In this document: positions 3,476 through 63,732 of the stretch, piece after piece
Numbering within the stretch: the stretch's first letter is position 1
Layout: each line of letters opens with the position of its first letter
Origin: a virus
IMG/VR virus record: IMGVR_UViG_3300023278_002223
Coordinates: 1-64,000 of that record
Length of the DNA stretch: 64,000 nucleotides
Reading direction: 5' to 3' (one strand)
Notes under the pieces: generated by a model
The model's input: only the letters and a program-made list of their open reading frames with translations
The model's database searches: none
Told to the model about the DNA's origin: nothing
Position numbers and translations under genes: made by a program

Positions 3476-3483
3476 TAATTAAT

Positions 3484-3494
3484 TTCGTATAATA
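3484..3494 (+). promoter_or_regulatory. Late promoter box TTCGTATAATA
   Basis: Exact copy of the box found also at 4532, 32620 and 32944 (variants at 11311, 15280, 26733). It lies in a 71-bp gap, 53 bp before the next start codon. It contains a TATAAT -10 hexamer preceded by TTCG; no -35 hexamer is visible. Confidence 0.7.
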
Positions 3495-3546
3495 CAATGG
3501 ACCAGATGGATCCACAGCACAATAACCATATTTAGAAAGTGTCAAA

Positions 3547-4458: not shown

Positions 4459-4507
4459 GGCAAGACCAGATAAGTACTTGGCTATATCTGAAATAAAATA
4501 AAAGATT

Positions 4508-4531
4508 TTTAGGGGACGTAAGTCCCCTAAA
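4508..4531. terminator. Perfect 10-bp inverted repeat, possible terminator
   Basis: TTTAGGGGAC, loop GTAA, GTCCCCTAAA, placed between the fibre gene and the capsid promoter box that starts at 4532. No T-tract follows on the + strand, so intrinsic termination is doubtful; it could also insulate or regulate the promoter it abuts. Confidence 0.45.
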
Positions 4532-4542
4532 TTCGTATAATA
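4532..4542 (+). promoter_or_regulatory. Late promoter box TTCGTATAATA (capsid operon)
   Basis: Exact match to the recurrent box, directly against the inverted repeat at 4508-4531 and 42 bp upstream of the capsid protease start. Probably drives protease/scaffold, decoration and major capsid genes. Confidence 0.75.
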
Positions 4543-4584
4543 ATATGAGCATTAAACTTATGACATATGAGGAGATCGAAGAGT

Positions 4585-35372: not shown

Positions 35373-37448
35373 TTACTTATTCTTGGCTTCTTGATCGGCT
35401 TTGTATTCGGCGATCAATTCTTCTTTGATGTCGCCTGGGGCTGCCTTGTAGTTTGCAAGCTCCATGGTGTAGGAGCTCATTCCACGGGTTGCGCTTCGGA
35501 GATCAGTTGAGAATCCAAACATCTCAGCCAGTGGGGTCTCTGCAATAATAACAGCGTCTGTTCCTTGCTGGGTGGTGTCTACTAGAATCCCGCGTCGGGC
35601 CAACATTAGGCCCACCATGTCTCCCTGGAACTCTGAAGGACCAGAGATCTCAACCTTCATGATTGGCTCTAGAATCTGTGGCTTTCCTTTGGAGTAGAAC
35701 TCTCGGAAGCATGCACGAGCGGCTGCCATAAAGGCCATGTCACTTGAGTCTACGGCGTGAGCCTTACCGTCCTGAAGCTCAACTGCTAGCCCATCGATTG
35801 GTGCGCCAACTAGTAGACCTTTAACTACGGCCTGAGCGAAACCCTTCTCAACAGATGGGATGTATTCGCGAGGAACGTTACCACCAGTGACAGTGCTTGT
35901 GAACTCCAGATCTTCTCCTTCAGCGGGGCCCATCTTTCCGATAATCCTACCGAACTGACCTGAGCCACCAGTCTGCTTCTTATGGGTGTAATCGAATTTA
36001 ACTTCGCGGGTCAAAGCCTCGCGGTATGCAACTGTTGGCTTACCAACCTCAACCTCAGCACCAAACTCACGCTTCATGCGCTCGATGTAGACCTCCAAGT
36101 GGAGCTCTCCCATTCCTGAGATTAGGGTGTCACCAGTCTTATCGTCCTGGGCGACCTTGAAGGTTGGGTCTTCTCGTGTGAAGCGACCAAGAGCCTTTGA
36201 AAGGTTGGCCTGCTTCTTACGGTCCACACACTTGATGGATAGCTGAATTACTGGCTCAGGAACGTGCATGGATGTGCAGAGTAGATCGACTCCAGGGGCA
36301 CGGAAGGTGTCACCAGAAGCACAATCGATTCCGAACAGTGCTACAATGTCACCGGCCTCTGCTCTCTCGATGTCTTCCATCTGGTCAGAGTGCATTCTCA
36401 CAAGGCGGCCAATCTTAACTACCTTGCCTGTGCGGGCGTTCTCAATCTGCTCACCCTTGACGAGTGCTCCCTGGTAAACTCGGATGTAGGTAAGCTGTCC
36501 ATACTGTCCGTCCTCAAGCTTGAAGGCGTATGCTAGGGTGTCAGCACTCTCGTCCATTTGGACCTCTTCCCCAGTCTTAGCATCAAGAGCCACGTTGGTA
36601 ACATCGCCCGGTGCAGGGAGGTATCGAGTGACTGCGTCTAGGAGGGGCTGGACCCCTTTGTTTTTGTATGCTGAACCACAGAAGACTGGGCAGAGCTCAA
36701 GAGAGATGATTCCAGCACGGGCTGCACGGTGGATTTGCTCTTCAGTAGCAGCGTCCTCTAGGACGGCCTCCATTAGCTCATCATCGAACATAGAGAGAGT
36801 GTCTAGGAGCTCCTCACGAGCAACCATAGCATCGGCCTCCATGGAAGAGGGGATCTCTTCGATTCGGATGTCCTGACCATTATCACCGTCGAAGTAGTAA
36901 GCCTTCATTGTGACGAGATCTACGAGCCCCTCAAGGTCAAGGCCCAGTCCGATAGGAAGCTGAAACATTGCCGAGTTTAGCCCCAGTTTGTCTTTTAGGT
37001 CAGAGCAGACCTGGATTGGGTCAGCACCAGTGGTGTCGCACTTGTTAACAAAGGCGAGGCGAGGTACGTTGTATCGACGCATCTGACGGTCAACGGTAAT
37101 TGACTGAGACTGAACACCAGCAACACCGCAGAGGACAAGAACAGCGCCATCTAGAACACGAAGAGAGCGCTCAACCTCAACAGTGAAGTCAACGTGCCCT
37201 GGAGTGTCAATGATATTAATAGGGTTCTTACCCCACTCAACGTGGGTGGCCGCTGAGGCGATAGTAATACCACGCTCTCGCTCTAGCTCCATTGAGTCCA
37301 TTGTGGCACCAACGCCATCCTTGCCTCGGACTTCGTGGATGGAGTGAATTCTGTCACAGTAGAATAGAATGCGCTCAGTTAGAGTCGTCTTACCGCTATC
37401 TACGTGGGCCGAAATTCCAATGTTTCTCATATCTGGATTGCTGGGCAT
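35373..37448 (-). CDS. fusA: Translation elongation factor G
   Basis: 691 aa, full length for EF-G, which moves tRNA and mRNA through the ribosome using GTP. All GTPase motifs are intact: P-loop AHVDSGKT (14-21), RGIT switch I (59-62), DTPGH (81-85) and NKCD (135-138). Domains II to V are present: domain IV contains the GGSGQFGRI stretch, and the end has the expected [18 protein letters not shown]. The N-terminus ([37 protein letters not shown]) is of the spd/mitochondrial EF-G1 type from memory. It starts in a TAATG overlap with a 39-aa zinc-knuckle gene. Arg codons are mostly CGN, as in the capsid gene, suggesting strong expression. Phage-encoded EF-G is rare. Confidence 0.95.
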
Positions 37449-38491: not shown

Positions 38492-38896
38492 TCAACGGAG
38501 TGACCATCCCTGGCCCTCTGTCCACTTTAGTGGCTGAATGTGTGAAAGTGTATCGAACCAATTTGTAAATCTAACCGCTTTGTCATCAATGTAGTAGCAG
38601 GCTCTTGGCTTTTCTGCTGTGATTTCATCTATGTACTGAAGTAGTCCGTGACTGTCAAGCCAAGCACTAACAAGCTCAGTCCCAGTAGTCCCATCAACTA
38701 GGGGACGATCAGAGCGAGCCTTGCATGTGTATAGGACAAGCCTGTACTCCCCAGAGAGAGCCTTGATGGCCTCTGCTGAGCCAGGGATGAGGTCGCCCTC
38801 AACGTAACCACCGTTCCAGTCTGTTTGGGCGTGTAGGACTCCATCGAAGTCTATGGCGATGGTCTTTGCTGCCTCTGCGTCGTAATCTCTAGCCAC
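38492..38896 (-). CDS. HAD-superfamily phosphatase
   Basis: 134 aa from a GTG that overlaps the end of the NeuB-like gene by 8 bases. Motif I DFDGVL (Asp16 region), motif II within LVLYTCKAR, and the acidic YIDDKA motif IV are present. It is a compact cap-less HAD enzyme. Within the nonulosonic-acid-type block it is a natural candidate for removing the 9-phosphate that follows the synthase step, though the substrate cannot be told from sequence. Confidence 0.75.
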   Translation of the reverse strand: MARDYDAEAAKTIAIDFDGVLHAQTDWNGGYVEGDLIPGSAEAIKALSGEYRLVLYTCKARSDRPLVDGTTGTELVSAWLDSHGLLQYIDEITAEKPRACYYIDDKAVRFTNWFDTLSHIQPLKWTEGQGWSLR

Positions 38897-39716
38897 CGTA
38901 ATCTCTCTTTTCTAGGAAGTCCTTCTCCCCCTCTGAAATGTCAGACGCTGTCTTTGATTCTAGAACAACACCTTTAACCGAGGACACCATGGCTGCAAAC
39001 TCTTCAGGCAGCAAGGCACATTCGAGGTGGTGAATCTTTAGATCTCTGGACAGAGAGAAGTGTCTCTCGATCATACCAGCCCCATTGAGAGCTGCAACGA
39101 GGGTGGCGTCGTAGCCAACTTCGTGTCCAGAATAGCCGATAGTAACCTTGGGGCTTGAGACCTCTTCGATCATCTTCCTAATGTATCCAGTGTTAGATAG
39201 CCCATCAGGGGTGGGATAGATAGAGACACAGTGAAGAATGTACGCCTCTATGTCCTTCTCCTCAATCCTCCTTAGGGCTTCTATGTAGAAGTCGTGAGTC
39301 TTTCCCCCCATGCTGTACACAAACGGGATGCCAAGCTCTTTACACTTGTCTGAGACCAAATCAAACAGCTCAGACTTGGCTGCATCCATAGAAGCTATCT
39401 TTAGGGCAGAAGGCCCGAAGGGGACAACGAAGTCTAGGGACTCCTTGTCATGGACGGTGGTGCTCCACTCTATGCCAACATCCCTACAGTGGTCAACAAT
39501 CTTCTGCATATCGGCCCTGTCGATCTCTAGAGACTTTCTGTAGTCTGAGAACGGCATATGTCTCCACCTCTTAGAGGGGTCAGTGTAGTATGAGTCCACG
39601 TTCTTAAACTTGAACTTAACCTGCGTTGCACCTGACTTCTTCGCTTCGCTAATCATAGCGCAAAGAATGTTGGTGCTCCCTAAGTGGTTAATTGTACATT
39701 CGCATACGAATTTCAA
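38889..39716 (-). CDS. NeuB-like nonulosonic acid synthase
   Basis: 275 aa from TTG 39716, preferred because GGAGGTGG sits 6 bases upstream and it follows the previous stop by one base; an ATG at 39731 has no site. Sialic-acid-synthase family motifs: MKFVCECTINHLGS (compare IAEIG-NH-G), SGATQVKFKFKNVDSYY, PFGPSALKIASMD, HCVSIYPTP and VTIGYSGHEVGY. These enzymes condense phosphoenolpyruvate with an N-acylated hexosamine to a nine-carbon sugar acid. The usual C-terminal SAF (antifreeze-like) domain is missing, since the family is normally about 340 aa. Neighbouring CMP-sugar synthetase supports the pathway. Confidence 0.8.
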   Translation of the reverse strand: MKFVCECTINHLGSTNILCAMISEAKKSGATQVKFKFKNVDSYYTDPSKRWRHMPFSDYRKSLEIDRADMQKIVDHCRDVGIEWSTTVHDKESLDFVVPFGPSALKIASMDAAKSELFDLVSDKCKELGIPFVYSMGGKTHDFYIEALRRIEEKDIEAYILHCVSIYPTPDGLSNTGYIRKMIEEVSSPKVTIGYSGHEVGYDATLVAALNGAGMIERHFSLSRDLKIHHLECALLPEEFAAMVSSVKGVVLESKTASDISEGEKDFLEKRDYGG

Positions 39717-39717
39717 T

Positions 39718-40365
39718 CTACCACCTCCCATTATCAGACAGAATGTCATCTAGAGGCTTATCCATCATGATCTGACTTCTGATGCTTCTTTCTTTCTCAA
39801 TGATAGTGTAGAACTTGCCCCAGTAAAACCCCAAGAGCTCCTTAGGAACAACAATGGCCCCATCTCTATCCATGGCAATGTAGTCACCGGAGTTAATGGT
39901 AACACCTTCGATTTTAATCTCACAGTCGTACTTCGTCAAAGCCCAATGCCCGATTGCGTCAATGGGGTTGTTGTCTTTTGAGAAAACTGGGAAGCCAATG
40001 TCATCAATTATGTCGGCATCTCTGGTTATGCCATCTGTTAGCATCCCCTGTGCTCCCATCTTCTTGTAGATAAGAGAGGTGATATCTCCAGTATGGGCAA
40101 CCTTGTTGTCATTAGCCTGCAAACACACGATGGGGTTCATGTGGCGGAAATAGTCCTGGTGGTCCCTATAAATGCCCATCCTGATGCGGTCAAGCTCTTC
40201 ATAGTTGGCAATGGTGACTTTCTGTCCATAGGTGGTGAAGGCTGGCCCATGCACGAACTTGCTATAGCCAGCTGTGGGCTTGATGTTGATGTAGAAGTCA
40301 TCAGCTTTTTGGCCAACGATCTTCCTAAGGGCATCGTATGCTGCGCCTAGGTACAGGTGTTTCAT
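39718..40365 (-). CDS. RraA-like aldolase
   Basis: 215 aa. The RraA / 4-hydroxy-4-methyl-2-oxoglutarate aldolase signature is clear at residues about 100-125: MGAQGMLTDGITRDADIIDD then FPVF, including the Gly-rich turn, TDG and RD residues that hold the metal and pyruvyl group. The N-terminal KPTAGYSKFVHGPAFTTYG stretch and GVTINSGDYIAMDRDGAIVVPKE near the end are also family-like. Some members are aldolases, others RNase E inhibitors. In this block an aldolase that supplies or tunes a keto-acid precursor for the sugar is plausible. Stop and start overlaps tie it to genes on both sides. Confidence 0.8.
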   Translation of the reverse strand: MKHLYLGAAYDALRKIVGQKADDFYINIKPTAGYSKFVHGPAFTTYGQKVTIANYEELDRIRMGIYRDHQDYFRHMNPIVCLQANDNKVAHTGDITSLIYKKMGAQGMLTDGITRDADIIDDIGFPVFSKDNNPIDAIGHWALTKYDCEIKIEGVTINSGDYIAMDRDGAIVVPKELLGFYWGKFYTIIEKERSIRSQIMMDKPLDDILSDNGRW

Positions 40366-40502
40366 TGCTTTTCATCCTTAGTAATAAAGTATCCACCAAA
40401 AACCAAAACCAAAGTGAACGCTATTAGACTAACGTTAACTAGTGCAATTAGGCCCGCCCAAACGCTTGCTGCGATAAAGAACCTCTTAATGCTACCCAGC
40501 AT
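40362..40502 (-). CDS. 46-aa membrane protein
   Basis: Translation begins MLGSIKRFFIAASVWAGLIA and continues LVNVSLIAFTLVLVFGGYFI then TKDEKQ: one long or two tight transmembrane helices with a basic N-terminus and charged end. It overlaps the end of the CMP-sugar synthetase gene and its stop overlaps the RraA start (ATGA), so it is embedded in the operon. Possibly anchors a sugar enzyme at the membrane; no family recognised. Confidence 0.6.
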   Translation of the reverse strand: MLGSIKRFFIAASVWAGLIALVNVSLIAFTLVLVFGGYFITKDEKQ

Positions 40503-41169
40503 CTTTCTCTCTTTTCTCAATTATTGCTCTTACAATCTCAAGATCCTCATTGTCATCTACGTCTAATGCCTCGATCTTGTTTACTGGGTATAGAAATGGA
40601 TTGCTACCCACTCTCTTTTTTCCCTTAACGAGGGCCTCTACTGTCACACCATACAGGCCGTGGGTCTCCATCAGCATGGGATCTAAGTCCTGTGAGTTTG
40701 GCAAAACCTCTGGACAGAAGTTGATAGGATTAGCTCTGTCGGACCAGAAGTACTCCTTCACATTGTTGATAGTGAAGAATGAATCAAAGTTTCCGAAGTT
40801 TTTAAAGGCCCTAATGGCCTTGTCCATAGTCTTGGATGTTATCAGTGGGGAAGTGGCAAAGGTTTGACAGATAAGGTCTACGTCCTCTACGGAGTGTAGA
40901 GCCCAGATCAAGAGATCATTGGCGTTGCAGGAGTTGCTGGCCAGGGCTTGCGGCCTGTCGATGATCCTAAGACCCTTGTTAATGAGGTCTGATACATCGG
41001 CCTTAATTGCCTCACACTCAGTGTCCAGGTAGACAAAGTCCACCTCTTTGCATTTAAGAGACTTCTCACAAGCCCTGTAGACAAGAGACTTTCCGTTGAT
41101 GCGGATAAGGTTCTTGCCTAAGACTCTCTCGGAAGTCCCCTTGGCTGGGATTACTAGTGCTGTTCTCAT
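40492..41169 (-). CDS. CMP-nonulosonate synthetase (NeuA-like cytidylyltransferase)
   Basis: 225 aa with GGAGA before the start. N-terminal nucleotide-binding signature LVIPAKGTSERVLGKNLIRINGKSLV matches the cytidylyltransferase consensus (PAKG-S-R--GKN), then VDFVYLDTECEAIKAD, an FATSPLITSKTMDKAIRAF strand-helix and a final KIEALDVDDNEDLEIVRAII (Mg-binding Asp pair). It would activate the nine-carbon sugar as CMP-sugar. It is the first gene behind a good leftward promoter at 41209. Confidence 0.85.
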   Translation of the reverse strand: MRTALVIPAKGTSERVLGKNLIRINGKSLVYRACEKSLKCKEVDFVYLDTECEAIKADVSDLINKGLRIIDRPQALASNSCNANDLLIWALHSVEDVDLICQTFATSPLITSKTMDKAIRAFKNFGNFDSFFTINNVKEYFWSDRANPINFCPEVLPNSQDLDPMLMETHGLYGVTVEALVKGKKRVGSNPFLYPVNKIEALDVDDNEDLEIVRAIIEKREKDAG

Positions 41170-41208
41170 TTGTTGTCTCCGGGGTTCTTAAAGGTTGTAC
41201 TTATAGAT

Positions 41209-41237
41209 ATAATAGCACAAGATGGAGACTGTTTCAA
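41209..41237 (-). promoter_or_regulatory. Leftward promoter of the nonulosonate block
   Basis: On the - strand TTGAAA (41237-41232), 17-base spacer, TATTAT (41214-41209). The sequence AAAAGTTGAAAC plus TTGTGC before the -10 is shared with the EF-G promoter at 37574. It begins just after the stop codon of the upstream gene. Confidence 0.7.
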
Positions 41238-41240
41238 CTT

Positions 41241-42065
41241 TTAATTCAAGTCTTCGTACAGCCAGAGGTCTCTTGGAACTTCTTCGGGGATGTAACTGCC
41301 CTTGCTGCAAATGTTTAGAGAGACACCCTTTGTGGCTAGGTATTCGTTCCAATCGAACATCCCAGAGAGGGAAAGAGCCGACTCTCCTTGGAATAGTTGC
41401 CCAGCAGCCCCCTGTCTTGCCAGAAGCTCACTGTCATTTCCGTCATAGAAGTGGTCGATCTTGTCTGTGTGGCCAAAGTCAGCAGGATAAAGGTCTACCC
41501 CAATGAGGTTTATAGACTTTGCGCCAGCATGTAAGGCTGTGAACAAAACGGTTTCTTTGATCGTACCCGGACCCCATGGCTTAACGATAGGCTGTGCATC
41601 TAGAGTCCAGTCATCGTGATTCCTGGTAACACAGAGGCATCTCTCTTGCTTGCCTGGGTCACTAATTCTAAAGAATAGGCTTGGGTTGGTGTCTCCCCAC
41701 AAGCCGCCCTTCATGGACTCTAAGGACTGACCTGCGGACCCCACGGATGTCACACCTCTGAGGTTATATGGTGTAAAGTTGTTACAATTGAAGAAGTGGA
41801 TGTCCACTCTTGGATGCATTGCAGCGAAAGCCTGCTTGATTGTGAATACGACCTTGCCGTCTAGCTTTTCAGACAAGTACCCTGAAGGGAAGTCAGACAG
41901 GGATGGGCCGCATGACACAACATAGATGTCCTCGCCCTCATACATGCCCCTGAGAAGAGCTATTCTGTCCACCTGGCTCTCAATACCTTCAACCATATTG
42001 GAGTACAAGATACCCCTGTCGCTGACATGATACTTAGACCAGTCAAAGTTGACTAGGCTAGCCAC
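41241..42065 (-). CDS. DUF115/GT42-like sugar-acid transferase (candidate)
   Basis: 274 aa from GTG 42065 with GAGGG upstream. The phrase IYVVSCGPSLSDFP is the GxGPSL-type CMP-sugar-binding loop seen in GT42 sialyltransferases and in DUF115/Maf-type proteins. Further family-like segments are ADFGHTDKIDHFYDG, AGAKSINLIGVDLYPADFGH and WNEYLATKGVSLNICSKGSYIPE, as in the Y--D...HF tail of those enzymes. It most likely transfers the CMP-activated sugar to an acceptor (virion protein, lipopolysaccharide or host surface). The exact family is not certain. Confidence 0.6.
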   Translation of the reverse strand: MASLVNFDWSKYHVSDRGILYSNMVEGIESQVDRIALLRGMYEGEDIYVVSCGPSLSDFPSGYLSEKLDGKVVFTIKQAFAAMHPRVDIHFFNCNNFTPYNLRGVTSVGSAGQSLESMKGGLWGDTNPSLFFRISDPGKQERCLCVTRNHDDWTLDAQPIVKPWGPGTIKETVLFTALHAGAKSINLIGVDLYPADFGHTDKIDHFYDGNDSELLARQGAAGQLFQGESALSLSGMFDWNEYLATKGVSLNICSKGSYIPEEVPRDLWLYEDLN

Positions 42066-42873
42066 TGGAGTCCCTCGCTTCTTCTGCCAACCTGCGCCTC
42101 TCGGCCCACGGAGCGAAATTATCAGTGTTCATGAAGTGTAGAAGAGGCACATTCTTTAGTAGATAGATTCTTCCGAAACCAGCATCCCTAAAGCCCTCAC
42201 AGATACTAACGTGCTCTACGTCAGTCTCCTGGTGTTTGCTAGAAGAGGAGAACCTTAGACCGTCAATAAATGGCTGGGCTTTGTAGGCACACAGACCATT
42301 GAAGGTGGAGTAGACTGGAGCTTCATCTTTTAAGAACTTGAATGGAGTGCATGTCCACCAGATGTCAAGCTCCTCTCCCCTAGTAGCCCACTTATCAAAG
42401 AGCTCCATGTGAGGTCTCTGGATGTCGGCGTGTAAGGAGTATCCAGAAGCCATGTCCGCAAAGCCACCTTCTCCAACAGCCCCTAGGAGCTTGGATAGAG
42501 CGGTTGCCTCCCACACGTAGTCAGCATCGAACCAGACTACATAGTCATAGGAGTCTAGGTCGCTAACCTGATCCATTGCGGCATTCCTAAATGCTGCCAT
42601 TTGGTTGATTCTCTCTTTTGACACAACGCTAGGGAAGTGAACCTTGTCTGTGATTTCAAATGCCGTAAACATTGATCCAAAATTAGATGGCTTCTCCCAC
42701 CCCTCTATGGCCTCTTTGGTGGAGTCCGATGAGTCGTTCTCGTAGAAGGACGCACTGAACTCATACTTGTCTGACAGGGCCTCCATTTGGGCAGTAGCCG
42801 CAACTAGAACCGATGGGAGCATTTTGGCTGAGTCCCTGCAAATCATGCAGAGCAATACTTTTTCTCTAGACAT
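42058..42873 (-). CDS. Glycosyltransferase (CAP59/GT69-like)
   Basis: 271 aa from ATG 42873, with AAGGAGG 4 bases upstream; the frame extends to 42903 but without a site. Matches the CAP59_mtransfer pattern: FYENDSSDSTKEAIEGWEKP, then AAFRNAAMDQVSDLDSYDYVVWFDADYVWE where DAD is the metal-binding DxD, and a later WTCTPFKFL and EHVSICEGFRDAGFGRIYLLKNVPLLHF. Such enzymes add mannose or similar sugars. It overlaps both neighbours by 8 bases. Confidence 0.65.
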   Translation of the reverse strand: MSREKVLLCMICRDSAKMLPSVLVAATAQMEALSDKYEFSASFYENDSSDSTKEAIEGWEKPSNFGSMFTAFEITDKVHFPSVVSKERINQMAAFRNAAMDQVSDLDSYDYVVWFDADYVWEATALSKLLGAVGEGGFADMASGYSLHADIQRPHMELFDKWATRGEELDIWWTCTPFKFLKDEAPVYSTFNGLCAYKAQPFIDGLRFSSSSKHQETDVEHVSICEGFRDAGFGRIYLLKNVPLLHFMNTDNFAPWAERRRLAEEARDSSG

Positions 42874-44998
42874 CGGTCCTCCTTCGGATGATATAACAAA
42901 CACTGTTTGTAAGTTGGTCCAAGTGAAGAGCGGTGTTGCAGTAGTTAGACTTTAAGCCCTCCACGTTAGAATTCTTAACTAGCTGATTGTGGGTGTTAAT
43001 AACGTTGGCGGTGTCTTCGGATAGGGCAAGCATGAGGCTGCTCTCTTTGCCAACCACCTCTCTTCGACACAGAAGCCTAGGGCTACTGATAGTTCTATTA
43101 AGATCCAGTCCCCAGGAGTTTTCAGCCAGGGTAACCAGTGTCATAGATCTAGCCACACCGTTGTTGGAGTTTATATCTTTGTTTATGTCAGAGCCGGAGG
43201 GAACAAATTCTTCACCTCCATATAGAAGTAGGGCCCAGTCGTTGTTTGCATGAGCCCTGGCTTCTTCTAGCGCCAGATTCATGTCTGAAGAATGGACGGT
43301 CCTAACATGGTCTGGGACATCCAGGTTCAAAGAGTCTGTTACTACAATAATCTCTGAAGCGTGAGGGAGAAGGCTGTTTAGGGAGAGATCTAAGCCATCA
43401 TTCCACTCCTCAGCCTGTGTTACGATAAGCCCAGTTAGAGACTGCTCGTCCCAGAGGGTTGGGTCTTTAAGCTCTGCATTTAGAACAACTGCTTCCCACT
43501 TCTTGGCACACAAATCCCAAGTATAATGATCTACGGCTGTTTTTCTGGCAGCATTGGCCAACCTGGAGAGCTCTAGGGAGCCATTCTTAGATAGCAACCT
43601 TGAGAATGTTTTCTCCAGATCTGCTCTTGAGAACAGGGCTCTATTCTGCATTGTTTCACACTCGGTGTACATGGAGGCAACCTTTAGAGGAACCCCTCCT
43701 CCATTTCTATTCTTTTCGTACAGAGAGCTGTAGTCTGTGCAAACGATTGGAACTCCACACGCCTTAGCTTCAGTGGCGGGCATTCCGTCCCCCTCACAAA
43801 TGGAAGCTTGGACGTATAGGTCCATTATGTTGTAAACCTTATTGAACTGCTCGTCATTTAGGCCGTTGGCAGTTGATGGGGTGGCAAGGGCGGGAACTCC
43901 GCAGGCTGGGCAAGACTGATTGCCGAAGCCCCAAACGCTAACCCCGTGGTGGTCGCAGTTCTTGCACTTGTATGAGAACAGAACTCTTTGGTTAACCCCA
44001 TACCTATGAATTGATTCTGGGATGTCGAATCCAACATCTGGAATTCCAGTATGAAGAAGAAGCCTAGTGTTCTCTGCATTCTTTGGATCGTTAACGCAGA
44101 AGTTGGCATAGGTTTCGATTAGTCTTGTAAAGAGCTTTCTTGGCTGGTTTCTCATGACTGTGCCAATAATCTTAATACCTGGGTGGATACCCATAGAAGC
44201 CTTTACCTCGGCTTTGTCTAGGGGCTTATACACATCGGTGTCCACTCCGGCCTGACAGACCATTGGTACGTCGATTTCTGGAATGCTGTGCCTCTTTGCC
44301 AGCTCGGTTCTTGATTGGTCCTCAATGACCTTTTTGCCAAAGTGAGAATAGGACATGACCGTATCGACCTCTGAGTATGAACCTAGCCAACTCCACTGCT
44401 GTGGATAGCTGTCAACACAGGCCATCCACACAATGTGAGCCCTCTTCGCGGCTGGTGTCTCAAGAACAAACTTGTCCATCCACCAGTCCCTGTGCATGAG
44501 GATGACGTGTGGTCTGACTTCCTCTAGAACTGCGTCTACTTTAAACTTGCCGAACTGATTGTCCTTGTATTCTGCCTGATACGCCCTGTTCTCTTCGTCA
44601 TTGTCTGGCATGTTGTGGAAGTATGTCCACTCGATTTCAGCCGCCTTCTTCTCTCTTCGAGGGGACTGACCGTAGGCACCTAGCTCAAAGCAGCTAATGT
44701 TTGGGTTCTTGTTTAGCCTCTTGAGGACGTTGTTCATATATGTGCCGAAGCCAGTATGGAGATAGGAGGCTTCTGATATGAATAGGACTCGAAGCTTCTC
44801 CTCCGTGCCATTAACCCCGTTGGCGTGAACACCCTCTGCGATCATCTTGTCCAGAGTCTCGATATCATCAAGACTTGGGTCAAATGTCGCTCCCATGATG
44901 TTGTGTGGGATTTGAAGCCCAGACAGCAAAGATGAGCCGTCCACCTTTTTGATAGAGGGCTTGTTCTTCTTCTTCTTGTTGTTTCTTTTCTTTGACAT
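42866..44998 (-). CDS. GT4-type glycosyltransferase with zinc-ribbon insert and C-terminal domain
   Basis: 710 aa. After a Lys/Arg-rich start (SKKRNNKKKKNK) comes a GT-B fold: LRVLFISEASYLHTGFGTYMNNVLKRL (N-terminal domain), and SICEGDGMPATEAKACGVPIVCTD, the E-x7-E donor-phosphate motif of GT4, near residue 410. Between the two lies a four-cysteine zinc ribbon (CKNCDHHGVSVWGF...CPACG, about residues 340-370), which is unusual for this family. Beyond about residue 520 a second region (SLTGLIVTQAEEWNDGLDLSLNSLLPHASEIIVVTDS) resembles the start of a GT2-type domain but seems incomplete. Presumably builds a surface glycan with the neighbouring enzymes. Confidence 0.7.
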   Translation of the reverse strand: MSKKRNNKKKKNKPSIKKVDGSSLLSGLQIPHNIMGATFDPSLDDIETLDKMIAEGVHANGVNGTEEKLRVLFISEASYLHTGFGTYMNNVLKRLNKNPNISCFELGAYGQSPRREKKAAEIEWTYFHNMPDNDEENRAYQAEYKDNQFGKFKVDAVLEEVRPHVILMHRDWWMDKFVLETPAAKRAHIVWMACVDSYPQQWSWLGSYSEVDTVMSYSHFGKKVIEDQSRTELAKRHSIPEIDVPMVCQAGVDTDVYKPLDKAEVKASMGIHPGIKIIGTVMRNQPRKLFTRLIETYANFCVNDPKNAENTRLLLHTGIPDVGFDIPESIHRYGVNQRVLFSYKCKNCDHHGVSVWGFGNQSCPACGVPALATPSTANGLNDEQFNKVYNIMDLYVQASICEGDGMPATEAKACGVPIVCTDYSSLYEKNRNGGGVPLKVASMYTECETMQNRALFSRADLEKTFSRLLSKNGSLELSRLANAARKTAVDHYTWDLCAKKWEAVVLNAELKDPTLWDEQSLTGLIVTQAEEWNDGLDLSLNSLLPHASEIIVVTDSLNLDVPDHVRTVHSSDMNLALEEARAHANNDWALLLYGGEEFVPSGSDINKDINSNNGVARSMTLVTLAENSWGLDLNRTISSPRLLCRREVVGKESSLMLALSEDTANVINTHNQLVKNSNVEGLKSNYCNTALHLDQLTNSVCYIIRRRTDV

Positions 44999-49887: not shown

Positions 49888-50105
49888 TAGATCCACATTC
49901 CTTGGTTAAGTGATCTTTTGAATGTAAGCTGTGTTTCGTAGGCTTCTTGAAAGGTCTCAAAGTTCCCTAGGAACTCCCCATTGTATGTGGACGCCCACCT
50001 GTTTCTACCGAGCCTATCGTCGGTAAGGTTTAGGATTCCTTTTACCTTCATGATCTGTGGGTGCCTGACATAGTAGATGTCAGCCCTAAAATCTGGGTTA
50101 AACAT
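49887..50105 (-). CDS. Hypothetical 72-aa protein
   Basis: Start ATG 50105 overlaps the upstream stop (ATGTTTAA); the frame extends to 50156. Sequence begins MFNPDFRADIYYVRHPQIMK, then RWASTYNGEFLGNFETFQEAYETQL. One alpha/beta domain of ordinary composition. No motif. Tight overlaps on both sides support a real gene. Confidence 0.45.
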   Translation of the reverse strand: MFNPDFRADIYYVRHPQIMKVKGILNLTDDRLGRNRWASTYNGEFLGNFETFQEAYETQLTFKRSLNQGMWI

Positions 50106-50700
50106 TTTTATTAATCTTTCTAGAAATAAGTGCCCATTTATCGTTTTCGTTCCCATAAACCCAGTTGTTGTCGCCCAAATATGAGCCTTCTGGGTATTCG
50201 CTCCTTAAGATGTCGTCCTCTCTGAGGTCGTCACCTTGCCATATCTCTACAACCACAACGTCTTCGTTGGTGTTGTTGTAGGCCGCATGCTTCTCCATCT
50301 TTCCTACAAACACCTCTTGTCCCTCTTCTAGGGTCAAGTCCTCCCCTTCTAATAGCATAGAAAGGGTTCCTTTTTGAACAGACCAGTGCTCAATTCTATG
50401 TTCATGCTGCTGGTAGGACATGGTGCAGCTTGGTTTTACTGTTAGCTCTTTGATTATGTACCCGTCGCCACTTGCAATGTGTCTGAATGAGCCCCATGCG
50501 CTGTCGACGGACCTCCTGCCCCTACTCCAAACCCACTCGTGTACGAAGTACGCACCCAGGGTAGCTGGAACGTGAATAACCAACCAGGAGACTGTGAACA
50601 ATAGCCCTCCAGTGAGGAGGTAGACGATTGCTGCGCCCATTATTGTTGAAAGCGTCTTCCACGTAATGGCCTTATATAGCCATCTTTTGTATGATGTCAT
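50098..50700 (-). CDS. DUF2061 membrane domain fused to a mannose-6-phosphate-isomerase-type cupin
   Basis: 200 aa, start in TAATG overlap. Residues 1-60 match DUF2061: SYKRWLYKAITWKTLSTIMG, then a second hydrophobic helix and GAYFVHEWVWSRGRR, which is the family's K-ITW-----(T) and HE--W signature; this places it in the inner membrane. Residues about 70-190 are a cupin like the C-terminal domain of type II mannose-6-phosphate isomerase/ManC: SGDGYIIKELTVKPSC, SYQQHEHRIEHWSVQKGTLSML, a second acidic strand and KHAAYNN, supplying the metal ligands His-x-His and His. Thus a membrane-tethered sugar isomerase-like enzyme or sugar-binding protein. I know of no such fusion; sugar substrate unknown. 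Confidence 0.7.
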   Translation of the reverse strand: MTSYKRWLYKAITWKTLSTIMGAAIVYLLTGGLLFTVSWLVIHVPATLGAYFVHEWVWSRGRRSVDSAWGSFRHIASGDGYIIKELTVKPSCTMSYQQHEHRIEHWSVQKGTLSMLLEGEDLTLEEGQEVFVGKMEKHAAYNNTNEDVVVVEIWQGDDLREDDILRSEYPEGSYLGDNNWVYGNENDKWALISRKINKNV

Positions 50701-51722: not shown

Positions 51723-51835
51723 TAGCTGTCTCCATAACCGTCAGACAGCATCCAGACCGCAAAGGCCCCGATGGTTGTCATAGACATGGTTAGTAGTAGT
51801 ATTTCGATTGTACTTATATCCACAGGTATTTCCAT
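51722..51835 (-). CDS. 37-aa membrane peptide
   Basis: Begins MEIPVDISTIEILLLTMSMT and ends FAVWMLSDGYGDS: one transmembrane helix. The ATG follows directly on the T-tract of a terminator and has no Shine-Dalgarno; the stop overlaps the next start (TAATG). Translation is uncertain. Confidence 0.4.
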   Translation of the reverse strand: MEIPVDISTIEILLLTMSMTTIGAFAVWMLSDGYGDS

Positions 51836-51868
51836 AAAAAAGAGAGAAAGACCAATCCGGCCTCTCTC
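51836..51868 (-). terminator. Leftward intrinsic terminator
   Basis: On the - strand GAGAGA (51868-51863), GGCC (51862-51859), loop, GGTC (51853-51850), TCTCTC (51847-51842), then TTTTTT (51841-51836). Lies after the ExbB/ExbD block. Confidence 0.8.
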
Positions 51869-51900
51869 CCTAATAGCATGTATATCAACGTATTTTATTA

Positions 51901-52422
51901 TTATTTAGGAGGAAGGGTTCCTGGAACCACAACTGAGCCCCTGCTCTGTATCTGATAGTTCCAACCACCACCGCCATCGCCGCCTCCACCTTCTCCGTCT
52001 CCGTCTCCGTCTCCGTCTCCCTCACCTCCCTCGCCCTCCCCTTGCCCACCAGTTGTCTCAAAGGTAGACGGCTCACCATCTCCCATAGACTCTCTTTCGC
52101 CCTCCAGGGCGTCCTCAGCTGCGTCTAGCCAGGGAAGCTGGACAATTCGAGTTGTGTCATCCTCTTTTAGGAACAGGGTTATACTTACGTCATGATCAAG
52201 ATCGAAGTATATGACAGTAATAGTGCTTGGGAGCTCATTCCACTCTAACTCTACTGGGTAACCAAGCAAGTCGTCATAGGAAATATAGCAGTTCGCTGCT
52301 GCTATTGCAATAACTGGAACAAATAGAACCAGTACTAGCTTCTCAGTGTTGAACGCCTGGATTAGACAGGCAAGAACAACCAGACCAAGAACCACTAGGG
52401 CCACTCCGAATGTTGAAAACAT
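51901..52422 (-). CDS. Two-helix membrane protein with Gly/Asp repeat tail
   Basis: 173 aa. Two transmembrane helices in the first 60 residues (FGVALVVLGLVVLACLIQAF and KLVLVLFVPVIAIAAANC), a soluble beta domain (VELEWNELPSTITVIYFDLDHDVSITLFLKEDD), then a low-complexity Glu/Gly/Asp section (GEGEGGEGDGDGDGDGEGG) coded partly by tandem 6-base units, and a Trp end. It follows the ExbB/ExbD-like pair by two bases. The soluble domain has the look of a small partner for a channel or envelope machine. No known family recognised. Confidence 0.5.
   Translation of the reverse strand: MFSTFGVALVVLGLVVLACLIQAFNTEKLVLVLFVPVIAIAAANCYISYDDLLGYPVELEWNELPSTITVIYFDLDHDVSITLFLKEDDTTRIVQLPWLDAAEDALEGERESMGDGEPSTFETTGGQGEGEGGEGDGDGDGDGEGGGGDGGGGWNYQIQSRGSVVVPGTLPPK
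51988..52020 (-). repeat. TCTCCG hexanucleotide tandem repeat
   Basis: On the + strand TCTCCG units in tandem (about five) in the Gly/Asp tail of the 51901 gene; a unit change alters the tail by two residues without frameshift. Confidence 0.7.
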
Positions 52423-52424
52423 GA

Positions 52425-53030
52425 CTACCTTCCTACCACATACTCGGTGCGAGACGTTGTTACATCTTCTATTCTAAACCTCTGCTCATCATTGACTACA
52501 ACGGTCTCCACAACTGTGAACTTAACAAAGTGCTTTTCAGAGCCCTGATCGGAGAACGTCTGCTTTCCAGCCCAGATGATTCTTCGGTGATCGATGTCTC
52601 TAATTACAACTTCCACCTCAAAAGGCTCTGCCTGAGCTCTCTTGGAGAAGTAGTGGCCGTTGACCACATACTCACCAGCAAGAACGCCTCGAACTGTTAC
52701 AATCTCTTCATTGTTGTCGATTGTGTGCCAGGTTCCATCCGGGTTCCTGTAGGTGCCGAAAGACACGATGTCAAGGTCCAGGAAGAGGGGATCCTCTTGC
52801 CTGTTGCCGTAGTACACCTTTCTCCCATCGGGAAGCTTAACCCACAGGTCAACATCGGTGTCCGTACTCCAATTCATGGAAATCAAGATCCTGTTTCTGT
52901 TATCGGTTGTGGCCTCGTCTTCAGTAGGGTCATTCACAAGGATGAAAGACAGGAAGAACAGGGCTACGAACGTCAACAGCAAGTTGAACAGCAGGTCGGT
53001 CATTGCGCTAGTGGTTGACTTGCTAGACAC
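52425..53030 (-). CDS. ExbD/TolR-like protein with periplasmic beta domain
   Basis: 201 aa from GTG 53030, chosen because GGAGAGG is 5 bases upstream; a TTG at 53054 is an alternative. One N-terminal helix preceded by Ser/Thr-rich residues (TTSAMTDLLFNLLLTFVALFFLSFILVND) as in ExbD/TolR. Then a beta-rich domain with DTDVDLWVKLPDGRKVYYGNR, resembling the D-D-DLHV-DP-G pattern of DUF2135/YfaP-type domains. Together with the ExbB-like gene it would form a proton-driven channel unit in the inner membrane. In ExbD a membrane Asp carries protons; here the expected acidic residue is not obvious inside the helix, so function is uncertain. Confidence 0.6.
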   Translation of the reverse strand: MSSKSTTSAMTDLLFNLLLTFVALFFLSFILVNDPTEDEATTDNRNRILISMNWSTDTDVDLWVKLPDGRKVYYGNRQEDPLFLDLDIVSFGTYRNPDGTWHTIDNNEEIVTVRGVLAGEYVVNGHYFSKRAQAEPFEVEVVIRDIDHRRIIWAGKQTFSDQGSEKHFVKFTVVETVVVNDEQRFRIEDVTTSRTEYVVGR

Positions 53031-53031
53031 C

Positions 53032-53481
53032 TTAGCCTCTCCACTTCTGCTCAATTAGGGCGACATGCGCCTGAAGGTTCAGAGAACAGATTAGGCCGAC
53101 TAGCGTTGTCACAAGAGCCGTTCCAATTCCACCAGACATTGATGTCAGTGCGGACTTAAGGCTCTCTGGGTCGCTTACGTCAAGACCAGAGAAAGTTCCC
53201 AACAGCATGAGGATAAGCCCAATAATGGTACCCATGAGCCCAAGAGAGGTGCATACCTCTGACGCCCACTTTGTTACCCCCAGGTTTGCCTCTTTACCCC
53301 ATGTCCTTAGGATGTACCCAAGGTGCAGGGTTGCGGCAAAGAGAATACCAAAGATGACCCAGGAGATACCTGTGCTGTCAGCTTGGCTAATAGATGAGCC
53401 CAGCCCTACAACCATAGAGTAGATAAATACAATCAGGGTCACTGAGGCCAGAGACCACCATCTTACCATTAGACTAGCCAT
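53032..53481 (-). CDS. MotA/TolQ/ExbB-like membrane channel protein
   Basis: 149 aa from ATG 53481 inside the end of the upstream gene. Four probable helices: LMVRWWSLASVTLIVFIYSMVV, SWVIFGILFAATLHLGYIL, EVCTSLGLMGTIIGLILMLL and TSMSGGIGTALVTTLVGLICSLNLQ. The last two carry the ExbB/TolQ signatures GL-GT--G and GI--AL-TTL-GL, where the Thr residues line the proton path. It is short for a TolQ (about 230 aa), lacking most of the cytoplasmic part. Paired with the next gene like exbB-exbD. Confidence 0.65.
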   Translation of the reverse strand: MASLMVRWWSLASVTLIVFIYSMVVGLGSSISQADSTGISWVIFGILFAATLHLGYILRTWGKEANLGVTKWASEVCTSLGLMGTIIGLILMLLGTFSGLDVSDPESLKSALTSMSGGIGTALVTTLVGLICSLNLQAHVALIEQKWRG

Positions 53482-53785
53482 TGTTGAACTGTGTTCCCTC
53501 GGTAAGAGCTGCAATCTCTTCTGCCAACTTTTGTGCAGCGATATCTTCTTCGGTAACCTGTGATGCAACGTATGTGAATGATAGGAGTTTTCCTACCCCT
53601 TTGAACTTAGAGCAGTCGATATCGGTTCCTTCGATCTTCACGCTGAAGTGCTGCTGCTTCTTGTCAAAGGATGCGCGAGTTAGCTCTACGCTGTCAACCA
53701 CAATTCCCTTGGAGATGAAACGGTCCTTGCACTGCTGCTCACTTCCGATACAGCTATAAATTGAGTATCCAGTTACCTTAGTCAT
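53474..53785 (-). CDS. Hypothetical protein upstream of ExbB-like gene
   Basis: 103 aa, overlapping the neighbouring genes at both ends. Beta-rich, with SIYSCIGSEQQCKDRF near the start (two Cys) and a helical end (EEDIAAQKLAEEIAALTEG). No signal peptide. Family unknown; conserved order might show whether it belongs to the ExbB/ExbD system. Confidence 0.45.
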   Translation of the reverse strand: MTKVTGYSIYSCIGSEQQCKDRFISKGIVVDSVELTRASFDKKQQHFSVKIEGTDIDCSKFKGVGKLLSFTYVASQVTEEDIAAQKLAEEIAALTEGTQFNNG

Positions 53786-59115: not shown

Positions 59116-59689
59116 CCAACCCTTCTGTAACGTCAAGGTCGTGAAGACCCTGTCTTTTGTTTGTCTTCTTAATAGCGCTATTGTCAGGAGTAAAGAATAC
59201 ATCCTTTTCTGAAATAGGTGTGTCGTCTTTCTTTAAGACTTCCTCTTTCTTAATAGCCACCGCATTGTGAATGTTTCTCATTTTCTCATCATTGGCGTAT
59301 CTGGTCACCAGATACCAAAGCATCTTCTGGAACACCTTCACTGGGTTATTTCCGAAAGTTGGCTCTGGGTAGTTTTTGAACTTCCACTTCTTGGCACCCA
59401 TCATCACAGTCTTGTAATGGCTTTTGATCTTTGGGTTTACAGCAACGTTCTTTCTCCAAAAATACGGAGGGAGGTTGCCAAATATCATTATGCATGACAT
59501 CTCTGCTAGAATGTGTGGAACTCCAAAGTACTGCCCCTGCGTTGTCAGTGATGGGAATAGGCCGCCCTTGGCTCTCTCTAGCTCTTGTCTACGAGAGAAT
59601 ATGGCTTTGCAGCCTGAGCAGTCCCGCTTTGTTGGTTTGATTCCTTTGTAATTTGGGTGCTTTTCACACCTGTTAACAAAGTCGCTCAT
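59096..59689 (-). CDS. Hypothetical zinc-finger-like protein
   Basis: 197 aa. Starts MSDFVNRCEKHPNYKGIKPTK, then DCSGCKAIFSRRQELERAKG: Cys8, His11 and Cys-x2-Cys near 24-27 could form a small zinc finger. The middle (WKFKNYPEPTFGNNPVKVFQKMLWYLV) is aromatic and basic. The C-terminus is acidic and ends GLDDDGST. Position before RecA suggests DNA work, but no family is recognised. Confidence 0.5.
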   Translation of the reverse strand: MSDFVNRCEKHPNYKGIKPTKRDCSGCKAIFSRRQELERAKGGLFPSLTTQGQYFGVPHILAEMSCIMIFGNLPPYFWRKNVAVNPKIKSHYKTVMMGAKKWKFKNYPEPTFGNNPVKVFQKMLWYLVTRYANDEKMRNIHNAVAIKKEEVLKKDDTPISEKDVFFTPDNSAIKKTNKRQGLHDLDVTEGLDDDGST

Positions 59690-60573
59690 TGGTTCCTCTT
59701 TGCTTCTTCCTCAAGAAACGACGCTAAGTCCTTCTTGGGCTTATACTTGGTTCTCTTAGTTCCCTGTCCTGGGACTGACTGTCTGGAGTGGACGAACCTC
59801 CTATGTCCCTCCACTATCCTAATAGCACTGCCAGTTGCCTTTTTAACCAAGTTGGCAACCTCCTTGGCTGTTAGGACATCTTTACCGGGAAGCTCATACA
59901 CACTAAACGAGTCAAGCTTAACTTCTTCCATTATCTCAAGACACATCTCTACGAAGTCATCAACATGAAGGTATGACCTAGTCTGCCCGGCCTCCTTGAA
60001 GACCTCTAGGTTGATCCCAGACCTGCATAAGCCCAAGAACTTGCTAACAATCTGCTTTGACTTCTGTCCAGGACCATAAACGCTGGGCATCCTCACTATT
60101 GCTGAACCCAGCTGAGTCTTCTCGTAGCTAGCTCTAACCATAGTCTCTCCGTAAGACCTGCTTAGATAATAGTCAGACGAAAGGTGAGACCCCTCTATGG
60201 GGCCTGTGGCCCTCTGTGTGCTTCCATAGACCATCCTTGTGATGTTTGTCTCACAGTAGTCTAGACAGCGCCTTAGGCCCTCTATCTGAGTCCTGTATAC
60301 CTGATTGTGGTCTGAGGTGTTTGGGCGTGGCAAGAAGAAGATTGTGCCGACCCCGGTGGGGATGTCGAGGTCGGTCACGTCCGATTTAATAAATTGGAAG
60401 TTGTCTAGGTTGTACATGTCCTCGATGTTAGCGAGGTTGCCCATAGATAGATTGTCCACAACCAAGACACTGTGCCCAATACTGCACAGCTCCCTGCTTA
60501 ACTTAGACCCTGTGAAGCCTGCGCCTCCTACGACGAGCACTTTCTGTTTATTGCCTCCATGACGTTTGACCAT
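59686..60573 (-). CDS. NAD-dependent sugar epimerase/dehydratase-like
   Basis: 295 aa. Rossmann signature KVLVVGGAGFTGSKLSRELCSIGHSVLVVDNLS near the N-terminus. SDR features follow: YGSTQRATG (Ser/Thr of the catalytic triad), and YYLSRSYGETMV, where the usual YxxxK has Arg in the Lys position, then VRMPSVYGPGQKS. It belongs to the extended SDR family that makes sugar nucleotides (for example UDP-glucose epimerase or dTDP sugar synthesis). The Lys-to-Arg change could lower or alter activity. Likely links to the glycosyltransferase block downstream. Confidence 0.7.
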   Translation of the reverse strand: MVKRHGGNKQKVLVVGGAGFTGSKLSRELCSIGHSVLVVDNLSMGNLANIEDMYNLDNFQFIKSDVTDLDIPTGVGTIFFLPRPNTSDHNQVYRTQIEGLRRCLDYCETNITRMVYGSTQRATGPIEGSHLSSDYYLSRSYGETMVRASYEKTQLGSAIVRMPSVYGPGQKSKQIVSKFLGLCRSGINLEVFKEAGQTRSYLHVDDFVEMCLEIMEEVKLDSFSVYELPGKDVLTAKEVANLVKKATGSAIRIVEGHRRFVHSRQSVPGQGTKRTKYKPKKDLASFLEEEAKRNQ

Positions 60574-60908: not shown

Positions 60909-61793
60909 CTAGCTAATGAACAAACCAAGTAGATCTGGGTCATCGATGATAAAAGGCAGAACGTGTTCGAGTCCCGAATACGCTCCAAAGTCATCACCAA
61001 GCCTCAGGGTTACAACCCCTACTAGTTTGCCATCCTCGGTATACACCCCTCCGCCACTATTTCCTCCTGTGAGAACACGGGAAACCATGTGACCGATAAA
61101 AGGATACCAAGTGAAGCTTAATTCGACCATGTCCTTCTGAACAAGACGATTCCTAAACACGATTGGGTCAACGACCATTGGGCAGCCAGCGATGAGCAAG
61201 CCTGTTCCAATCTTCATCTCCCTGATCTCTTGAAAAGAAGCTCTTAGGCCGGGGGTAATCCCCTTTAAAATTTTGGATCTAGCCTTAAAGTCAATAATAA
61301 CAAAAGCAATATCGACTTCTCGACTTCTAACAATTCTATAACTCATAACATCTTCGCTTCGGCTGACATTGAAGGACTTCTCCGACGAAATGTTCCCTAC
61401 CGAATCTCTAACGTAATTGACAAACCTATACTCTGTAGCTGGAACCATTCTCCATGTAGGACTGTCATCGGTGTTGCTTGGGCTCAACTTCTTGAGCAAC
61501 AGAGCATGATCAATCTCAGGCTTCATTGTTTCGTCTAGCACATGGTTGGCGGTAATGATTGTTACTCGCCTAACGGGACCAAGTACTTCGTGGTCGATTA
61601 GCTCATTCTGGATGACTGTGGCGCTCCCGGCGGACAGGGTTCTAGTTGTGTTTCCGCTGTCAACTACCAGTACTTTTAGCGTTGAGTCCAGAAGGGCGCT
61701 CTGTACTGAGGAATCAATGTCATCTGCTGTTGCGACAACTCCTGATGCAAGTCCCAGTACGATCAGTGCTGATGCTAGAATGTGTTTTCTCAT
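60909..61793 (-). CDS. Secreted trypsin-like (S1) serine protease
   Basis: 294 aa from ATG 61793; the frame extends to 61862 but the signal peptide MRKHILASALIVLGLASGVV fits this start. After a cleavage zone near ATADDID, the catalytic triad is visible: His84 in ITANHVLD, Asp161 in REVDIAFVIID and Ser246 in GGNSGGGVYTEDGKLVGVV. This is a typical trypsin-2-type layout with an extended loop before Asp. Exported to the periplasm or outside, it could help lysis, digest host proteins or modify the cell surface. It lies with a phage signal peptidase two genes upstream. Confidence 0.8.
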   Translation of the reverse strand: MRKHILASALIVLGLASGVVATADDIDSSVQSALLDSTLKVLVVDSGNTTRTLSAGSATVIQNELIDHEVLGPVRRVTIITANHVLDETMKPEIDHALLLKKLSPSNTDDSPTWRMVPATEYRFVNYVRDSVGNISSEKSFNVSRSEDVMSYRIVRSREVDIAFVIIDFKARSKILKGITPGLRASFQEIREMKIGTGLLIAGCPMVVDPIVFRNRLVQKDMVELSFTWYPFIGHMVSRVLTGGNSGGGVYTEDGKLVGVVTLRLGDDFGAYSGLEHVLPFIIDDPDLLGLFIS

Positions 61794-63207: not shown

Positions 63208-63732
63208 TTAGAACGGCAAAGAGAACAGGTACTCTGAAACAATATCTGTAATCTTTACAGGGCCTATACTTCTTGAATCTAGTGATGCGGGGCGATTGTC
63301 TCCCCCTACGAAGACTTCGTCGTCGCCTAGGATTAGAGTGTACTCCCAAATGGTGGAGTAGTCGCTCCTAGGATACATTTCTTCCATCAGAGGGAAGTCT
63401 CCTGCCTCTGTGGTGATAGAATTTGCTCTGATTGTAACCGTCTCTCCTGGCAAACCGATGATTCTCTTAATCAAAAGCCTTGAACCAGGAACCCCGTTTG
63501 CGTTGTCTTCTTTTAGAACCACAATGTCAAACCTGTCTAGGTTGAACTTAGTGGTAACCAAAGTCATGGAGCCATCCTCGATAGACGGCATCATGCTGGT
63601 TCCCTGAACCTCCATCAGCTCGATACCTATAGGGCCCTTTAGAACAAGCAGGACGACCATTCCAATGGCAACGCCCCTTAGAACCTGAAAGGCTGACTCT
63701 AGGCTGAATAACTTTTTAATGAGGGAGTTCAT
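63208..63732 (-). CDS. lepB: Signal peptidase I
   Basis: 174 aa. One N-terminal transmembrane helix (FQVLRGVAIGMVVLLVLKGP), catalytic Ser46 in VQGTSMMPSIEDG, the general-base Lys89 in RLLIKRIIGLPGE, and GDNRPASLDSRSIGPV, the conserved structural motif. All features of a type I signal peptidase are present, so it should cleave exported proteins at the inner membrane. A phage-borne signal peptidase is very unusual; the secreted serine protease gene nearby is a natural substrate. Confidence 0.88.
   Translation of the reverse strand: MNSLIKKLFSLESAFQVLRGVAIGMVVLLVLKGPIGIELMEVQGTSMMPSIEDGSMTLVTTKFNLDRFDIVVLKEDNANGVPGSRLLIKRIIGLPGETVTIRANSITTEAGDFPLMEEMYPRSDYSTIWEYTLILGDDEVFVGGDNRPASLDSRSIGPVKITDIVSEYLFSLPF

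Follow-up and report, generated by a model that had tools for sequence, protein, structure and literature searches.

A three-gene cassette shared by phages and Alphaproteobacteria and predicted to encode a compact ion-driven membrane motor

Three adjacent genes in a virus genome were found to encode an ExbB/MotA/ZorA-like channel, an ExbD/MotB-like partner and a third membrane protein. We put the chance at about even (roughly 0.5) that this cassette is a mobile motor unit which acts in the periplasm and which phages use together with a secreted protease for upkeep or remodelling of the envelope before lysis. The window, meaning the whole stretch of DNA that was analysed, comprises 64,000 bases of an 89,248-base IMG/VR virus record. 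The three ORFs that a preliminary description of this DNA had claimed were all present in the ORF list and translations, adjacent to each other and on the minus strand. The features of the window are as follows.

53032..53481, minus strand: ExbB/MotA/ZorA-like channel, 149 aa from ATG 53481, four transmembrane (TM) helices (Pfam MotA_ExbB, hydropathy, conserved residues)
52425..53030, minus strand: ExbD/MotB-like protein of 201 aa, started at GTG, whose single TM helix carries a conserved Asp and precedes a DUF2135/DUF4425-like beta-sandwich
51901..52422, minus strand: third protein of 173 aa with two TM helices, a strand-rich small domain that has a GYPV motif, and a Gly/Asp/Glu-rich tail
51841..51871, minus strand: site resembling a Rho-independent terminator (stem of 14 base pairs, T run), at the operon end
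53474..53785, minus strand: upstream ORF of 103 aa, overlapping the start of the channel gene, without a family match
60909..61793, minus strand: trypsin-like serine protease (Pfam Trypsin_2, E 1e-6), candidate partner in the same genome, 7.4 kb from the cassette

The GTG at 53030 comes right after the stop codon of the channel gene. Translation from an alternative start, TTG 53054, would give an ExbD-like protein of 209 aa, but GTG 53030 seems more likely because a GGAGAGG Shine-Dalgarno sequence lies in front of it and because it agrees with the N-terminus of a relative, the IMG/VR locus L047. The operon probably ends with the third gene, as the terminator-like hairpin with its T run comes next. 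The 103-aa upstream ORF probably belongs to the same transcript; it is not a conserved part of the cassette.

The scanned neighbours of the cassette in the window included a phage-type PDDEXK exonuclease, a cupin protein, a RecA-like protein and genes that were not assigned. The cupin protein (50098-50700, minus strand) was predicted to consist of a DUF2061 membrane domain fused to a cupin of the mannose-6-phosphate-isomerase type, and a cupin-like gene was also found 3′ of the cassette in another IMG/VR locus, L051 (4105-4521). A possible 37-residue one-helix peptide is located at about 51726-51839 (minus strand), between the terminator and the exonuclease gene. Several 16-3-type phages carry a different 38-residue helix peptide (GCWYGLKRLGPE type) 3′ of the cassette; this one-helix peptide was considered as a conserved fourth small protein and rejected, as it was not present in bacteria or in most other phages. 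Elsewhere on the minus strand, the window contains a full-length elongation factor G (35373-37448; 691 aa with all EF-G domains), which is unusual in a phage, and surface-sugar genes (38889-44998 and 59686-60573) predicted to encode NeuB, a cytidylyltransferase, an RraA-like aldolase, glycosyltransferases and an epimerase.

The assignment of the first protein to the MotA/TolQ/ExbB superfamily was borne out by an HMM search, in which Pfam MotA_ExbB (PF01618) matched over the pore helices (37.1 bits, E 3.1e-9, cutoff 22.9); the same match was obtained when the whole 89,248-base record was scanned. The channel signatures that had been pointed out were found in TM3 (GLxGTxxGL) and TM4 (TALVTTLVGL), and the Thr/Ser position of TM4 was T in 71/77 and S in 6/77 homologues. 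Both profile matches and conserved polar residues within the membrane were thus found, among up to 78 homologues. The more specific label ExbB/TolQ stood with respect to superfamily membership, but the sequence was closer to ZorA than to ExbB or TolQ. Compared with solved structures, the family profile matched ZorA first (E 1.3e-7), then MotA, TolQ (0.026) and ExbB (0.39), and the matches to ZorA, MotA and TolQ fell in the pore region. Likewise, the best matches among curated defence and NCBIfam models were ZorA models (PADLOC E 1.3e-8, NCBIfam E 1.2e-5).

Four TM helices were predicted in the window channel, TM2 and TM3 being joined by a very short cytoplasmic loop (about 20 residues) and the Thr of TM4 being followed by about two dozen residues. 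Judged from its sequence, the channel is a minimal four-helix version of the MotA/ZorA-type plan without a torque domain. The segment from an invariant periplasmic Asp to the TM3 Gly, which includes the cytoplasmic loop, showed a median length of 41 residues in phages vs 91 in bacteria (Mann-Whitney p 1e-13, a value that ignores shared ancestry), and phage channels appear mostly to have lost the cytoplasmic loop. The ZorA matches could also be explained by an anti-defence function, in which the phage channel would block Zorya by mixing with the ZorA/ZorB of the host as a decoy or poison subunit. This is considered very improbable, since the ZorA match spans only the shared pore helices, a complete three-gene unit with its own ExbD-like partner has been retained, and the same unit is found in bacterial chromosomes.

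The description of the second protein as ExbD-like held in part: it has a single TM helix with a membrane Asp (AMTDLLFNLL), but neither an ExbD nor a MotB profile from Pfam or NCBIfam matched it. This ExbD-type Asp was present near the start of the single N-terminal TM helix in 67/77 homologues, and in one bacterial clade of 10 it was displaced one helical turn earlier. The helix of this clade (loci L114-L121, L090, and L127) also has a Lys. The DUF2135-like domain was found as described, with a DVDLW motif, and a bacterial homologue (L091) scored 21.5 bits against PF09906 (DUF2135), under the cutoff of 22 bits. An AlphaFold model of the protein (pLDDT 83.7), predicted from aligned rows of the window and of fetched loci alone, consisted of one helix (12-40) and a beta-sandwich, with calcium-bound DUF4425 as the nearest PDB fold. 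Because this fold match is weak (E 3.3e-3), calcium binding by the modelled beta-sandwich is only a lead, with which the conserved acidic residues D67, D69, D95, and E117 would be consistent. Invariant in 78 ExbD-like sequences, numbered from the TTG start, were W62, D67, D69, L92, D95, E117, G127, and E173.

In the third protein, the two TM helices and the Gly/Asp tail that had been noticed are real, but the tail is a local trait, common to the window and L047 only. An AlphaFold model (pLDDT 75.8), predicted from the same kind of rows, showed two helices and a small, mostly beta domain, for which there was no fold match in PDB. No TonB- or TolA-type family in Pfam or NCBIfam matched this protein, and TrAA12 and phrog_3284 were rejected as candidates because the matches lay in the low-complexity half and the Pfam one was below cutoff. 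Many members have basic residues between the two helices, which by the positive-inside rule suggests that both ends of the protein face the periplasm; the C-terminal domain is probably periplasmic.

Ion-driven 5:2 motors (MotAB, TolQR, ExbBD, ZorAB) combine an A subunit that has a Thr/Ser ring with a B helix that has an Asp. In the cassette version, the ExbB/ZorA-like protein would form a ring of five around two ExbD-like helices. Ion flow, running between the Asp of the helix and the Thr/Ser ring of TM4, would set the two subunits in motion relative to each other, and the proton (or sodium) motive force would in this way drive a compact, mobile motor unit of three genes. The DUF2135-like beta-sandwich would be its periplasmic part, replacing a peptidoglycan-binding, TonB or TolA domain, and the two-helix third protein would assist. 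We infer the 5:2 stoichiometry, ion flow, topology, and periplasmic action.

Single-protein scans of IMG/VR with the window channel or the window ExbD-like protein gave no match, and neither did a tblastn search of phages with the window channel. Relatives were reached via the ExbD-like domain, as tblastn with the ExbD-like protein matched 39 phage records, of which 23 were Rhizobium phages. A search for other phages with the ordered trio had been proposed, and it succeeded: flanking genes annotated as hypothetical or merely numbered translated to this trio in 16-3 (p038-p040-p042), RHph_I1_18, RHph_N34 and vB_RleM_P10VF (Pootjesviridae), and RHph_N3_19. Further scans added phages, 27 IMG/VR loci obtained from two family alignments, and 8 contigs of bacteria, most of which are rhizobial prophages. 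Using profiles built from 6-11 members each, the channel, ExbD-like and third genes were detected in that order and on one strand in nearly every locus with enough flank; the three are separated by other small genes or by homing endonucleases in phages of the 16-3 type. The two loci nearest to the window were L047, with 41-50% identity in the three proteins, and L051, with 37-38% for the ExbD-like and third proteins. Proteins of Vequintavirinae were rejected as part of the same system, since they share only the DUF2135-like domain within a large protein, without motor genes. The example from Serratia phage Kashira (L006, 2732-4735, plus strand) is probably of the phrog_1735 type.

DNA-metabolism genes (replication, repair, nucleotide) surround the cassette in the types represented by the window, Pootjesviridae and RHph_N3_19. 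In 16-3-type phages it follows the lysis region, with lysozyme and endopeptidase genes 3-4 kb upstream in RHph_TM3_3_14B. These locations indicate that the cassette acts in the cell and is not a part of the virion. The position after the lysis region, together with a related protease just after endolysin and holin in Sulfitobacter phage pCB2047-C, would agree with a role in lysis control, where the unit would be a timer of lysis that senses the ion gradient or dissipates it, or an energised counterpart of outer-membrane-acting spanins. This role appears unlikely, in view of the cassettes placed among replication and repair genes and of the bacteria in which the unit is a stable chromosomal trait.

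A trypsin-like protease was encoded by 18/19 cassette-bearing phage isolates as well as by the window phage, a count that should not be read as a probability because the isolates are related; rhizobiophages are also over-represented. The window protease has an N-terminal hydrophobic segment and the active-site motifs TANHV and GNSGG; the His and Ser active-site motifs were recognisable in 24/28 proteases, and the protease associated with the cassette is probably secreted. Directly or nearly directly upstream of the cassette, 16-3-type loci encode a trypsin-like protease whose N-terminus has a hydrophobic segment; in Pootjesviridae the protease is far from the cassette. A search of 50,697 phage records with the 16-3-type protease matched 42 records, mostly cassette-bearing rhizobiophages. 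The protease was also found without the cassette (Sulfitobacter pCB2047, phiM9, and KZY1), and the cassette was found without a Trypsin_2 match in RHph_I1_18; most bacterial chromosomal cassettes had no protease neighbour. In the bacterial locus L091, three consecutive trypsin-like protease genes (2093-5315, plus strand) are located upstream of an aspartyl-tRNA synthetase-like gene and also upstream of a divergent channel and ExbD-like pair. Near the protease of the window, a signal peptidase I-like protein (Peptidase_S26, E 7.9e-25) is encoded at 63208-63732 (minus strand).

The unit had been presented as carried by a phage. It is indeed present in phages, but it is not confined to them, as the same trio was found in many Alphaproteobacteria chromosomes. 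The ExbD-like profile matched 68/385 Alphaproteobacteria genomes, 55/385 (about 14%) at E < 1e-30, and 16/398 Pseudomonadota at E < 1e-38. In all 38 bacterial loci examined, the channel gene was directly upstream of the exbD-like gene on the same strand; in 32 of these the third gene was detected as well, and in the remaining six it was the only one that went undetected. The top match of the phage channel profile in 12 bacterial genomes was the cassette gene beside exbD-like (E 1e-10 to 1e-22), and other members of the channel superfamily in these genomes matched at about 1e-7 or weaker. Large replicons of Azospirillum brasilense carry the cassette in two places each. Chromosomal neighbours were ordinary genes without a common function, e.g., those encoding SufB, aspartate dehydrogenase, a histidine kinase, and a protein kinase. 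Some bacterial clades retain the same cassette neighbours, and there the cassette looks vertically inherited. A unit that bacteria keep as a stable trait should have a basic activity from which a cell profits.

When 77 ExbD-like proteins were placed in a quick maximum-likelihood tree, the phage and bacterial labels required five changes, at least two of which were forced by the starred branches; the deep branches of this tree are weak and it does not give the direction of transfer. The phage copies sit in separate places among the bacterial ones, which points to several transfers of the cassette between phages and bacteria. Pairwise distances of the three proteins were correlated (r 0.83-0.91), to which relatedness alone contributes. 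The patchy distribution (55/385 Alphaproteobacteria at E < 1e-30), the ZorA-like channel and the carriage by prophages would also agree with a bacterial defence system used by its phage carriers against other phages, i.e., a Zorya-like sensor of envelope damage that collapses the ion gradient. We find this quite unlikely, as the unit contains no nuclease or other effector, the sampled chromosomal copies do not have defence genes as neighbours, and some clades share neighbours as if by vertical inheritance.

Among 151 Rhizobiaceae genomes, a full-length match was found in only two, of which one is the prophage L018 and the other (G864) has an internal stop. A function as decoy of a host chromosomal paralogue is therefore unlikely in this family. 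The rarity of chromosomal copies in Rhizobiaceae would suit dedicated superinfection exclusion, in which the motor and the protease, made early, act on entry factors of the outer or inner membrane and block injection by later phages, with the motor giving force in the ATP-free periplasm and the protease cutting an exposed target. The same explanation would account for a cassette that has membrane and periplasmic parts only, is located among DNA-metabolism genes, is carried by temperate (16-3) as well as large myovirus-type phages, and nearly always has a protease co-encoded. It is nevertheless rather doubtful, because bacterial chromosomes carry the unit beside housekeeping and not defence genes, which suggests a cellular role.

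Ion-powered maintenance or remodelling of the envelope is the most likely role, with superinfection exclusion as its more specific rival. In bacteria, mostly Alphaproteobacteria, the unit would be a stand-alone envelope system. Phages would share it through several transfers, with the cytoplasmic part of the channel trimmed, and would pair the motor with the secreted trypsin-like protease so that the periplasm and envelope of the infected cell are maintained or remodelled before lysis, with exclusion of competing phages as a likely benefit. We likewise infer the direction of transfer, the connection with the protease and the gain for the phage. A broader proposal, which we hold tentatively and think less likely to be right than wrong, is that of an undescribed family of ion-driven motors that power proteolysis or remodelling inside the periplasm, where ATP is absent, and of which bacteria have the full form and phages a miniaturised form with a secreted protease. 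Under this proposal, the cassette would be the first case of an ion-driven motor that a phage encodes together with a defined set of partners.

If the motor reading is true, the cassette would enable a virus to drive processes beyond the inner membrane of the host cell. A separate and widespread version made of three genes, whose periplasmic domain and third subunit are new, would add a branch to these motors, and the phage copies would show how small such a motor can be. As Rhizobiaceae hosts mostly lack one, the phage copies also offer a clean way to learn the role of an added envelope motor. Phage 16-3 is genetically tractable and has long been studied.

Force-generating 5:2 motors are known from flagella, Tol, Ton, gliding, and Zorya. 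The cassette is most similar to ZorA-ZorB of Zorya, sharing a four-TM channel with matching TM3 and TM4 signatures, for which ZorA was the best of all solved structures, and a one-helix partner with a membrane Asp; in Zorya, the ZorB Asp is packed against Ser/Thr of ZorA (PMC11890865). However, Zorya needs the peptidoglycan-binding domain on ZorB (PMC11890865), whereas the B subunit of the cassette has a beta-sandwich instead. The cassette channel furthermore lacks the long cytoplasmic tail of ZorA, and the third membrane protein is unrelated. No match to ZorB was found in PADLOC or NCBIfam, and ZorC, ZorD, and ZorE were not found among the scanned neighbour ORFs of the cassette.

Compared to MotA-MotB and PomA-PomB, the cassette has a similar topology of the four-TM A subunit and an Asp-bearing single-helix B subunit, but it contains neither a torque-generating cytoplasmic domain, for which the Asp-to-TM3 segment of about 40 residues in the phage channel leaves no room, nor an OmpA-like domain, and the profile match was weaker than that to ZorA. 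With TolQ-TolR and ExbB-ExbD it shares a small A subunit, an Asp-bearing B subunit and the combination of a motor pair with a third membrane component. TolQ and ExbB, however, have three TM helices compared to four in the cassette channel, and the third protein, with its two TM helices, does not resemble TolA or TonB. The beta-sandwich is similar to DUF2135 and DUF4425 domains in its DxDL motif and predicted fold, with calcium-bound DUF4425 as the top, though weak, PDB match, but in the cassette this domain is fused to an ExbD-type membrane helix.

An ExbB-like gene has been reported from a Lentisphaerae tailed phage as a TonB-system gene linked to polysaccharide use, and the relevant passages name no partner genes of the cassette type (PMC11361711). 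The literature retrieved dealt mostly with Tol/Ton biology. Apart from the Lentisphaerae report, no phage-borne ExbB was found in the passages retrieved from the papers searched, a search with subscription journals and preprints outside it. The AP-16-3 paper, as far as a term search covers it, mentions neither ExbB nor p038, p040 or p042 by number. Recent surveys describe the non-flagellar motors as a diverse group with many appended domains of unknown function (PMC12505986) and expect further ion-driven motors to be found (PMC12204202); the passages of both located by term do not describe the cassette. The suggestion of a new system thus agrees with the libraries and papers searched, which held no described system with these parts. 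The cassette does not belong to the Ton, Tol, Mot or Zorya systems, and taking the comparisons together, the best reading is that it represents a new, mobile variety of ion-driven 5:2 motor.
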